From positions 1-59,107 of the forward strand of contig JAAYAR010000090.1 in the NCBI GenBank assembly GCA_012719235.1: 59,107 nt of DNA, written 5' to 3'. The notes under the pieces were generated by a model, which searched no databases, was not told the origin of the DNA, and saw only the letters and a list, made by a program, of their open reading frames with translations. Numbering within the stretch: the first letter of the stretch is position 1; every line of letters starts with the position of its first letter. Source of the stretch: Clostridiales bacterium (lineage in GTDB: Bacteria > Bacillota > Clostridia > Oscillospirales > Oscillospiraceae). Positions 36,831-39,524 of the stretch are shown one piece after another. A program made the position numbers and the translations under genes.

Positions 36831-36856
36831 AGAAAAGCCGATGTATGAGTAGTAAT

Positions 36857-36886
36857 CGTTTCAAAGAACATGCGTTCTTTGAAACG
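36857..36886. repeat. Perfect inverted repeat after tsaD
   Basis: CGTTTCAAAGAA and TTCTTTGAAACG form a 12-base perfect stem with a six-base loop, 26 bases after tsaD. It has no T-run; it may be a terminator-like block or part of the adjoining repeat island. Confidence 0.6.
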
Positions 36887-36925
36887 GACAGGGGAAAGAC
36901 ATCGCCGCTGCTGTGGCAAAAAGCC

Positions 36926-37044
36926 TTCCCCTTGGAGGGGAATGTGGTAGTCGGAGCCGACCGGATGAGGTGTTTATGTTCTTTCCGCCGGGATGCCACC
37001 TCATCCGCCTCACTTCGTTCGTCACCTTCTCCTCGAGGAGAAGG
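36926..37044. repeat. Composite palindromic intergenic repeat
   Basis: Three nested or tandem palindromes: TTCCCC/GGGGAA (36926-36942), CGGATGAGGTG/CACCTCATCCG (36962-36972 with 36997-37007), and the perfect 20-base palindrome at 37025-37044. The whole looks like a mobile-type intergenic repeat (REP/MITE-like) without coding capacity. With the flanking hairpins it accounts for most of the 361-base gap 36831-37191; the short frames crossing it are not convincing genes. Confidence 0.65.
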
Positions 37045-37153
37045 CACGTTCAAATTCCAAAAATCGGTCACGCACACGCAACACGGTTTCTGGAATTTCT
37101 TTCGCGCTGCGAAAGGACAGAGGTCTGAGAATTATGCTTTTGCTGTCTGTAAA

Positions 37154-37181
37154 CGGGCATGACTCCGGTCATGCCCGCTTT
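37154..37181. terminator. Terminator between convergent tsaD and the M56 gene
   Basis: CGGGCATGAC and GTCATGCCCG pair perfectly around TCCG. On the plus strand CTTTT follows, so it best serves the tsaD side, but it can act for both converging transcripts. Confidence 0.7.
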
Positions 37182-37191
37182 TGGGTCCTTG

Positions 37192-39090
37192 TCAGTACGT
37201 TCTCCACAACTCCTCGTCGGCCGGCTGGCCTATATCGAAGTAGAACTCCATCTCGTAATGGGTGTCCCTGACGGTGTCAAAGCTGCCGCGGACGGTGTAG
37301 TGCGCGCTGTATGGGGTGAGAGGCAGCACCATGCCGTCAAGCTCGGCGGAGCTTAAAGTAAAACGTGCGCTCCTGTCCCAGTTCTCCACGGTTACCGAGA
37401 ACTCTGAGGGAGGATAGCTGAATCCGAGCCTCGCCTCTGTCAGCATCGCGCCGAAGCCGCCCCCGACGCCGGAGTATTCGTACTCGGGTTCCCTGCGGCC
37501 TGCAGCGTCGGTGACCGACAAAACCCGGCTCTGGGCATACAGCGGTTCGGCTTCGGAGTGCTCGGGGCCTGACAGGTATACGAGCATTTTCGGCGGTTCG
37601 GGCGCCGGGTCCGGATCCGGCGCGTCATAATCGAGGAGCGAGTCGATGTACTCCCAGTCGACCGCTCCGTCTATGATATAAGTGATCTCACGGGAATCGT
37701 CGTAGGGGATATCGGCGAATATCAGCCCGCCGCCCAAAGCGATACGAGTCAGGCTCACTGTATTTCCGTCGACGGCCTCGGCGTAATCAACGTATAACCG
37801 GCGTTCATTACCCTCTTCGTAATTTCCGGCGTATACCTGCCTGGCGCGCAGAGAGGAAATATATCCGGTCAGCGCCGCGCCGTCATAGCCGTGTATCGTG
37901 CGATAGCCGGATGAGCGGCCTGTCCCGTTGTAGGCGACCACTCTGTCGATCACGATGGCGGGCGGGGCCCTGTCGAATATCAGCGTCTGCACGGACTTCG
38001 AACCGTCGGCAAGCCCGACGGCTCCGTAAGCGGAGATGAGAACAAACAATGCAACGGAGATGAAAACTCCGCCCGGGAGGCGTTTTGCCGGCTTGACAAC
38101 GTTGCGAAGCCTGTAGCGCAGAGTTCCGGGAGCGGCCGACAGGCAGGTTGTGCAGCCCCGACCGTCTCCGGCGCTCATGAGCAGCAGCTTCGCATACTCT
38201 TTGCGCGTATTATCGTCCGCGCCCGAGAGTATTGCCTCGTCACAGCTCAGTTCGAGGTCGGCCGCTACTTTCCTCCGCGCGATCCATGCAAGCGGGTTAA
38301 ACCAGCACATAGCCGTGTAAAAGGCCAGAAACAGCTTTGTGCGGGTGTCACAGCGCAGAATGTGGCGAAGCTCATGGCGAAAGATCATATCAAGTTCTCT
38401 GTCAGTGTAGCCGCTTCGCGGCAAGACAAGCCGCATGGTGCGCGTAAAACAACCTACAGTCAGGGGAGTACTCACTGCAGTCGACTCTGCGATGGGAATA
38501 TCGGTCTTTATTCCGTGCCGCCTCAGCCCGTTTTTCCACTTTACAAGGACGGCTTCATTCTCAAGCTCTGTTGCGCCGCGCAGGATTCGGCCGCGAATAC
38601 GCAGATGGGATACAAGCTGCCACAGCATGACAGTGATGAACCCTGCGGCCCATACTGCCGTTAATGCGGGCAGTAATCTTCGCGGCAGCGTGATAACGAA
38701 CACGGGCCGCATCTCGTGACCGGAGATCCAAACAAAAAAGTACAGAAGTGTCGGCAGGAGCCACAGCGCGGCACACGCCCCGGCGCTGATGATCCTTCTC
38801 AGCGGAACGAGCAGCAGGAGCAGCAGCGCATAGTACAAGCTTATATGGATAACGAGCAGCCCGAGATTGGGATAGATGAGCTTCAGTGCGCCCGGGCCGC
38901 CGGCGATCAGAAGCAGCGCAAAGCAGAGCGCAAGCGTCGCGGGGAGCGCAAGAGGTTCAATAAGACAGGTCTTCCGCCCCGGCTTAATGCTGCCGACTGC
39001 AAGCTTTTCCTCTTCCTTGCGGCGTGCGTTGTATGCGACGGCAGCCGCGACGCCCAGGATGGTACCGATGAGAGTCTGATATATGGTCAT
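37192..39090 (-). CDS. BlaR1/MecR1-like M56 metalloprotease receptor
   Basis: A 632-residue membrane protein. Several hydrophobic segments in the first 160 residues are followed by the cytoplasmic zinc protease motif HELRH (239-243) with the third ligand in ELSCDE (280-285), then a further helix (341-360) and a roughly 270-residue outer domain. In BlaR1 that outer domain is a class D beta-lactamase-like penicillin sensor; here I see no SxxK/SxN/KTG set, so it probably senses something else. On activation M56 proteins cause cleavage of the BlaI-type repressor encoded just upstream, with a 4-base ATGA overlap. No target resistance gene is adjacent. Confidence 0.88.
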   Translation of the reverse strand: MTIYQTLIGTILGVAAAVAYNARRKEEEKLAVGSIKPGRKTCLIEPLALPATLALCFALLLIAGGPGALKLIYPNLGLLVIHISLYYALLLLLLVPLRRIISAGACAALWLLPTLLYFFVWISGHEMRPVFVITLPRRLLPALTAVWAAGFITVMLWQLVSHLRIRGRILRGATELENEAVLVKWKNGLRRHGIKTDIPIAESTAVSTPLTVGCFTRTMRLVLPRSGYTDRELDMIFRHELRHILRCDTRTKLFLAFYTAMCWFNPLAWIARRKVAADLELSCDEAILSGADDNTRKEYAKLLLMSAGDGRGCTTCLSAAPGTLRYRLRNVVKPAKRLPGGVFISVALFVLISAYGAVGLADGSKSVQTLIFDRAPPAIVIDRVVAYNGTGRSSGYRTIHGYDGAALTGYISSLRARQVYAGNYEEGNERRLYVDYAEAVDGNTVSLTRIALGGGLIFADIPYDDSREITYIIDGAVDWEYIDSLLDYDAPDPDPAPEPPKMLVYLSGPEHSEAEPLYAQSRVLSVTDAAGRREPEYEYSGVGGGFGAMLTEARLGFSYPPSEFSVTVENWDRSARFTLSSAELDGMVLPLTPYSAHYTVRGSFDTVRDTHYEMEFYFDIGQPADEELWRTY

Positions 39091-39464
39091 AGTTCGCCTC
39101 TTTCAAGAAGGCAGCGTAATTTTTCTATCTCGTCGCGGCTAAGGCCGCTGTCGCACAGCGCGGCGGCGAAAACATTAATATCGCCGCCGCAGAGCTTTTT
39201 CAAAAACCGCCGGCTCTGAGCGGCCAGATATTCGCCGCGGGAGAAGACGGGCGTATATACGTTGCTTTTTCCCTGTTTATCAACGGACAGCGCCCCGCGC
39301 TCCGCAAGGCGCGAAAGCAGCGTCAGTATGGTCGTGGCTGCCATTTTACGCCTGCGGCATAAAACGCGCTCGATATCTGCTCTTGACACGGGCGGCGGGC
39401 AATCCCATACGGCCTGCATGACCTCGAACTCAGCGTCCGGCAGCCTGCATATTGCGTTCTCCAT
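39087..39464 (-). CDS. BlaI/MecI-family transcriptional repressor
   Basis: A 125-residue penicillinase-repressor-type protein. An N-terminal winged helix (about residues 5-75, with DAEFEVMQAVWD and TILTLLSRLAERG) is followed by a dimerisation tail. BlaI proteins bind TACANNTGTA dyads as dimers and are inactivated by proteolysis through the M56 receptor. Two such dyads lie directly upstream of this gene, so the pair should be autoregulated. Overlap with the M56 gene is four bases. Confidence 0.94.
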   Translation of the reverse strand: MENAICRLPDAEFEVMQAVWDCPPPVSRADIERVLCRRRKMAATTILTLLSRLAERGALSVDKQGKSNVYTPVFSRGEYLAAQSRRFLKKLCGGDINVFAAALCDSGLSRDEIEKLRCLLERGEL

Positions 39465-39476
39465 TCACGTTACCTC

Positions 39477-39486
39477 TACAATTGTA
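39477..39486. promoter_or_regulatory. BlaI-type operator 2
   Basis: TACAATTGTA is a perfect TACA-N2-TGTA dyad, located between the promoter and the repressor start codon, exactly 24 bases from the other operator. Confidence 0.85.
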
Positions 39487-39496
39487 GTATATAATC

Positions 39497-39524
39497 ATTC
39501 TACAACTGTAGCAGATAATGTCAA
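39497..39524 (-). promoter_or_regulatory. Promoter of the BlaI/M56 operon
   Basis: On the minus strand a perfect TTGACA (39519-39524) and TAGAAT (39497-39502) are 16 bases apart. Operator 1 fills the spacer and covers part of the -10 box. Confidence 0.8.
39501..39510. promoter_or_regulatory. BlaI-type operator 1, inside the promoter
   Basis: TACAACTGTA fits TACA-N2-TGTA and lies between the -35 and -10 hexamers, overlapping the -10 box by two bases, an ideal place for repression. Confidence 0.85.

Follow-up and report, generated by a model that had tools for sequence, protein, structure and literature searches.

A putative self-targeted BlaI/M56 switch with a predicted two-domain module in place of the BlaR1 penicillin sensor

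BlaR1 is the textbook example of a receptor that signals by cleaving a repressor, and it has been studied mostly as a sensor of beta-lactams. The 59,107-nucleotide stretch of DNA analyzed here (the window, meaning the whole stretch), from a Clostridiales bacterium described as a gut-type organism, raises the question of what such a receptor does when its outer half is of another kind. A sequence-only reading of the window had pointed to an M56/BlaR1-like receptor with an intact protease half, an outer domain (37195-38010, equivalent to receptor residues 361-632) without the SxxK, SxN or KTG motifs of penicillin sensors, and no beta-lactamase or PBP2a gene nearby. Here, we ask whether protease and sensor are what they appear to be, and which genes the system is likely to control. 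Based on the computed state of the protease half, the absence of a penicillin-binding protein (PBP) domain, the coupling to blaI, and the pairing and distribution of exact operators, we propose as the probable reading a one-step proteolytic BlaI/M56 switch that regulates only itself, and whose two-domain outer module takes the place of BlaR1's penicillin sensor.

The receptor gene is intact on the minus strand, from an ATG at 39090 to a stop codon at 37192-37194 (Table 1). Residues 141-312 match the Pfam family Peptidase_M56 (PF05569, E=2.4e-34; 119.3 bits against a cut-off of 31), a match spanning only positions 100-272 of the 296 in the profile, and the protein carries the HExxH and ExxxD motifs of peptidase family M56; no further Pfam family was matched at E<=1. 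Residues H239, E240, H243, E280, and D284 are invariant across all 14 aligned homologues, and we infer, partly from the description of BlaR1 in PMC9834060, that E280 provides the third zinc ligand, with the role of D284 assigned likewise. At E<=1e-3, the full-length AF2 model (mean pLDDT 83.7) had a single Foldseek match, to BlaR1 of S. aureus (E=7.1e-6), and VIA aligned model residues 72-326 with residues 1-293 of BlaR1 (8exs; Z 17.2, 245 residues, rmsd 4.4). As BlaR1 residue 1 pairs with model residue 72 and the preceding ~71 residues are unaligned, the resemblance to BlaR1 covers the protease with its membrane helices, and the N-terminal residues are extra; in the model these form helices 2-32 and 48-64, which we take to be membrane-spanning. 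A hydrophobic stretch (residues 337-364) surrounds the predicted last transmembrane helix. Family match, fold match, and both motifs thus bear out the identity of the receptor and the integrity of its protease half as first read. The intergenic region after the receptor (36835-37190 of the window) belongs to a dispersed repeat with 61 matches in the same genome, itself included, whose pieces are 70-94% identical, the self match aside.

Table 1. Features of the locus, with positions in the window, strand, and the evidence for each
Feature	Position	Strand	Evidence
M56/BlaR1-like receptor-protease gene, 632 aa	37192..39090	-	ORF; PF05569; AF2 model
Outer domain 2, residues 496-628, predicted Ig/FN3-like beta-sandwich (model 138-270)	37207..37605	-	AF2, VIA
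Outer domain 1, residues 359-493, predicted alpha/beta (model 1-135)	37612..38016	-	AF2 model
Last transmembrane helix, residues 341-354, predicted	38029..38070	-	AF2 secondary structure
C316-L317, predicted self-cleavage site, loop between helices	38140..38145	-	Inference from BlaR1 Ser283-Phe284
ELSCDE, residues 280-285	38236..38253	-	E280, C283, D284, E285 identical in 14/14
HELRH zinc-binding/catalytic motif, residues 239-243	38362..38376	-	Sequence; 14/14 homologues
N-terminal extension (residues 1-71) with two additional helices predicted to span the membrane	38878..39090	-	AF2 model, BlaR1 alignment
BlaI/MecI-family repressor gene, 125 aa, 4-bp overlap with receptor start	39087..39464	-	ORF; PF03965
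BlaI A102-L103, predicted scissile bond	39156..39161	-	MecI alignment; inference
Operator O2 CTACAATTGTAG, leader just before blaI start	39476..39487	.	Sequence
Promoter TTGACA-16-TAGAAT	39497..39524	-	Best of 4 promoter-like sites (11/12)
Operator O1 CTACAGTTGTAG (minus strand), overlaps -10 box	39500..39511	.	Sequence

The likeness to BlaR1 ends at the membrane. A pattern scan of the 274-residue outer part (359-632) found no SxxK, [SY]xN, or K[TS]G, and an SxxK occurs in 6 of the 16 outer domains of the subfamily, at scattered positions. The outer part matched no Pfam or NCBIfam model at E<=10, and the outer halves of other members gave single weak matches at most. PF00905, the family that marks BlaR1/MecR1 sensors, was absent from the outer part at E<=10 and from the whole receptor at E<=1; the receptor reached 95.6 bits against the 400 demanded by the NCBIfam model blaR1_generic. 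The same Pfam test was validated on a BlaR1 annotated on a Metabacillus dongyingensis plasmid: this control gave PF00905 over residues 371-588 (E=1.7e-45), its outer domain contains STYK and KTGT, and its significant BLASTP alignment with our receptor was limited to residues 146-353 of the latter. BlaR1 chains aligned structurally over 1-293 only, so that the match to the BlaR1/MecR1 sensor domain that would have spoken against the early reading did not appear, and neither the 50 Foldseek rows nor the 50 VIA rows listed contained a class D beta-lactamase or PBP chain, a sampling that falls short of proof. The claim that the outer domain is not of the penicillin-binding type is therefore well supported.

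What the outer half is instead can be described from an AF2 model of residues 359-632 (mean pLDDT 86.6, pTM 0.60, 16 aligned sequences), which predicts a two-domain module, an alpha/beta domain followed by an Ig/FN3-like sandwich that covers residues 496-627 in the full-length model. Of the 796 Foldseek matches (E<=10) that the module gave when searched alone against the PDB, not one reached E<=1e-3, and its sequence profile matched no solved structure at E<=10. The best VIA rows over model residues 138-270 were FN3, Ig-like, and CopC sandwiches (top Z 6.8, 84 residues, rmsd 2.6), and since the second domain filled the rows, the first, for which no known fold emerged, was hardly probed by itself. 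The Ig/FN3-like sandwich is a common arrangement, and we do not read copper sensing from the CopC rows (Z 5.8-6.5), which are tied with the FN3 rows and uninformative on copper. Likewise, each of the 16 outer domains has an acidic pI (4.05 to 4.62), as would fit cationic peptides or metal ions as ligands, but acidity is frequent among secreted domains and we make no claim on that basis. For the early suggestion that the domain may detect another envelope signal, none of our results points to a ligand.

The module is conserved. Queries with the outer domain found 15 further loci in genome contigs, including two Erysipelotrichaceae metagenome-assembled genomes, and the same operon is carried by Flavonifractor sp. 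An100 and Fusibacter paucivorans DSM 12116. Within the family, 11 of 300 genomes have the domain (E<=1e-3), i.e., 10 of the 299 besides that of the window, and in a class-wide sample 4 of 391 genomes match the profile, the window genome included. Together, the further loci and family genomes argue that the domain is not random sequence, and the low proportions describe a sparse and patchy subfamily. No relatives were found in viral contigs or phages; 42 plasmid records matched, and the ten listed fall within query residues 99-379 at 24-29% identity. Outer modules vary in extent, from a 904-residue receptor that continues for about 250 residues beyond the sandwich, with no Pfam match over cut-off there (L017:4843-5598), to a version that ends after the first domain and lacks the sandwich (L031:8767-9204). 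About 3 kb past the M56 operon of Fusibacter paucivorans DSM 12116, the stretch L025:13661-18580 holds a 1252-residue ORF that matches the NCBIfam model of type VI-C Cas13c (459.5 bits, cut-off 150) and, behind it, 15 repeats in a CRISPR-like array.

The receptor's partner recurs as well. Its PF03965 match (E=2e-25; 89.8 bits against a cut-off of 22.6), TACA/TGTA operators at its own promoter, and similarity by phmmer to MecI and BlaI structures in the PDB identify the repressor as a BlaI/MecI protein; it scored 65.5 bits against the 121.95 set for the CopY/CopR copper repressors (TIGR02698), and no CxC motif occurs within its 125 residues. A blaI gene lies directly upstream of the M56 receptor in 14 of 14 related loci (the 15th, L020, is cut by a contig end), and the 4-bp overlap recurs in 15 of 16 rows, with the window and a paralogue (L057) counted and L027 differing. 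The earlier proposal to look for homologues with conserved neighbors thus succeeded for blaI and went no further: no other conserved neighbor, and no conserved third gene, was seen among the related loci.

Two predicted operators resembling CTACANNTGTAG lie 23-26 bp apart in all 16 family promoters, as located by a script that takes the best two sites per promoter and is therefore biased towards finding them. The upstream site O1 matches at 10/10 positions in nine promoters and 9/10 in seven, and O2 at 10/10 in twelve, 9/10 in three, and 8/10 in one; all but one of the 16 promoters have TTGACA 7-8 bp upstream of O1. According to PMC7253601, TACA/TGTA is a known operator core of BlaI, MecI, and CopY, and the same source warns that TACANNTGTA is insufficient for CopY binding.

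If these are the operators, their distribution should delimit the direct targets. The window genome (2.42 Mb in 199 contigs, about 94% complete) contains the exact sequence YTACANNTGTAGW at the two operon sites and nowhere else, and a search allowing one mismatch added five places, all inside coding ORFs (65 for a control pattern). Ten related genomes hold 31 exact sites, of which 11 precede the local relative of the operon, 5 precede other blaI-M56 operons (both genes confirmed by Pfam), and 15 fall inside ORFs, such that every one of the 16 noncoding exact sites lies before a blaI-M56 operon. ORFs were called by a simple longest-ORF script, sites inside them were treated as nonfunctional, though some could act in principle, and the sites within an over-long blaI ORF at two paralogue operons (L077 and L079) were counted as upstream because the PF03965 match begins later; in three genomes (G303, G305, and G309) the operators of the relative itself deviate and are missing from the exact-site count. 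The pattern of TTGACA plus operator was met 12 times in 11 genomes, 11 times at the family operon and once (L091) before another blaI-M56 operon, and a control pattern was met once. Judged by near-exact operators, the regulon thus appears to be the operon itself, with receptor and repressor as its direct transcriptional output. The overlapping blaI gene, the paired operators, this apparent self-only regulon, and the two additional N-terminal helices had no place in the early reading.

Some genomes carry further switches of this type. A second blaI-M56 operon in the window genome (L001, G000:C51) encodes a different outer domain with a weak FG-GAP match, and its promoter dyad has GTTTAC/GTAAAC halves; as this dyad looks different, the two switches seem separate. 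In one Erysipelotrichaceae genome (L057, L079; G306:C80), three blaI-M56 operons share the CTACANNTGTAG operator and have different outer domains, which suggests cross-regulation among them. Profile comparison detected no homology of our outer domain to that of C51 or of the two Erysipelotrichaceae paralogues.

That a loop directed only at itself offers no evident benefit may mean that a target was missed, and it is possible, if clearly the less favored option, that the switch works as proposed while BlaI also represses effector genes, either through degenerate operators or because some of these genes fall in the portion absent from the assembly. Separate effectors are under the control of known BlaI/MecI systems, three operons are reported for BlaI_0696 of C. 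thermocellum (PMC8457756), the family's own operators vary down to 8/10 matches, and our searches detect near-perfect sites only, so that weaker ones would escape. Against such a wider regulon, each of the five extra one-mismatch places in the window genome is coding, and the TTGACA-plus-operator pattern met only blaI-M56 operons across the 11 genomes.

The same scarcity of targets could mean that the receptor is itself the effector, either because the induced membrane zinc protease cuts a second protein or because the outer module captures a ligand, in which case no other gene would need control. The lack of other operator targets and of a conserved third gene would fit, but our searches yielded no candidate substrate or ligand and nothing that favors a second substrate, and we regard this as rather unlikely. 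Similarly doubtful is its stronger form, in which there are no separate effector genes at all, the M56 receptor, induced by its own signal, serves as the output, and wherever a genome has more than one pair, the receptors share an operator code and regulate only each other.

A further question is whether the receptor might still report beta-lactams or cell wall damage by an indirect route, with peptidoglycan fragments or a partner protein in place of acylation. The BlaR1 homologue of M. tuberculosis is said to be without an equivalent sensor domain (PMC9834060), and PMC3305447 describes the in vitro displacement of BlaI/MecI by a peptidoglycan dipeptide, both of which would allow it. However, no beta-lactamase or PBP gene was found among the named neighbors (TsaD, GNAT, EamA, MreB-like, and phosphoribosyltransferase) or among 18 more distant window ORFs scanned, in agreement with what had first been noted, and no linked target is therefore apparent among those genes. 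Across the genome, there are five matches to PF00905, four of them over cut-off, and three to PF13354, with C11 common to both lists, and none of these eight matches at seven distinct places has an operator above 8/10; the proteins on C11, C22, and C194 look by eye like D-Ala-D-Ala carboxypeptidases. We consider indirect reporting improbable. Finally, decay of a BlaR1 that lost its sensor, acquired junk sequence instead, and no longer signals might account for the patchy presence in 11 of 300 family genomes, but this already disfavored idea is very hard to reconcile with outer modules conserved in several lineages (24-59% identity to that of the window), invariant catalytic residues, and retained operators and 4-bp coupling.

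We therefore return to the self-targeted switch as the probable reading, and its signaling, both cleavages, and derepression of the operon may be sketched by analogy to BlaR1. Without signal, BlaI dimers would occupy both neighboring operators, with O1 covering the -10 box and O2 the leader, and so keep expression of their own operon low. Once the outer module receives a signal, the last membrane helix would relay it to the cytosolic zinc protease. The protease would then cut BlaI, probably at A102-L103, and itself, probably at C316-L317, whereupon the operon would be made in quantity. For S. aureus BlaR1, PMC9834060 reports one cut within the receptor (Ser283-Phe284) and one in BlaI (Asn101-Phe102), and places Arg294 and Asp246 in the active site. 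Extending the end of the VIA alignment, at which model residue 326 pairs with BlaR1 293, places R327 at Arg294 and L317 at Phe284, and T315, L317, and R327 are identical in all 14 aligned receptors. For BlaI, Leu occupies the predicted scissile position in 16 of 16 family proteins, where PMC9834060 describes Phe as almost invariant, and the cleavage site is for this reason a guess; Leu at both predicted P1' positions would make a coherent, if speculative, idea.

Compared to BlaR1/MecR1 of S. aureus and B. licheniformis, our system shares the M56 fold, the catalytic residues, a last transmembrane helix leading to an outer domain, a blaI/mecI-type partner, and TACA/TGTA operators. In contrast, its outer domain has no PBP family match or SxxK/SxN/KTG, its receptor has two extra predicted N-terminal transmembrane helices, no beta-lactamase or PBP2a target was found among the genes scanned, and Leu replaces the Phe reported for BlaR1 at both predicted cut sites. 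Regulation of a single operon has a precedent in C. thermocellum, for which PMC8457756 assigns BlaI_1845 a regulon of one operon, its own blaI-blaR1, by DAP-seq and motif scan, so that self-only BlaI systems have already been reported. BlaI_1845 binds there through two pairs of inverted repeats, as the repressor of the window would through its two operators; the motif given is GACTAT rather than the CTACA/TGTAG of the window, and the operon has two extra genes, one of them read as a response function. The M. tuberculosis homologue is likewise an M56 protease without a PBP sensor, but as described in PMC9834060 it has no equivalent sensor domain, whereas ours has an outer module of 270 residues. 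Also similar are an M56 protein with a DUF6034 outer domain (L076:2-1612), another nonpenicillin variant, and the C51 protein, both of which combine M56 and another outer domain with BlaI upstream; the outer domain of C51 is unrelated to ours by profile comparison, and its operator looks different. In the open-licence literature we found no paper on this BlaI/M56 subfamily, although one may exist. Conservation of protease, repressor, and operators across a subfamily with a swapped sensor suggests that the signaling chassis is general and that other inputs are possible, and the small, near-perfect operator set makes its regulon directly testable. Receptors of the M56 type without a PBP domain already exist, and what is added here is a BlaI/M56 chassis that carries another sensor and is apparently targeted to itself.
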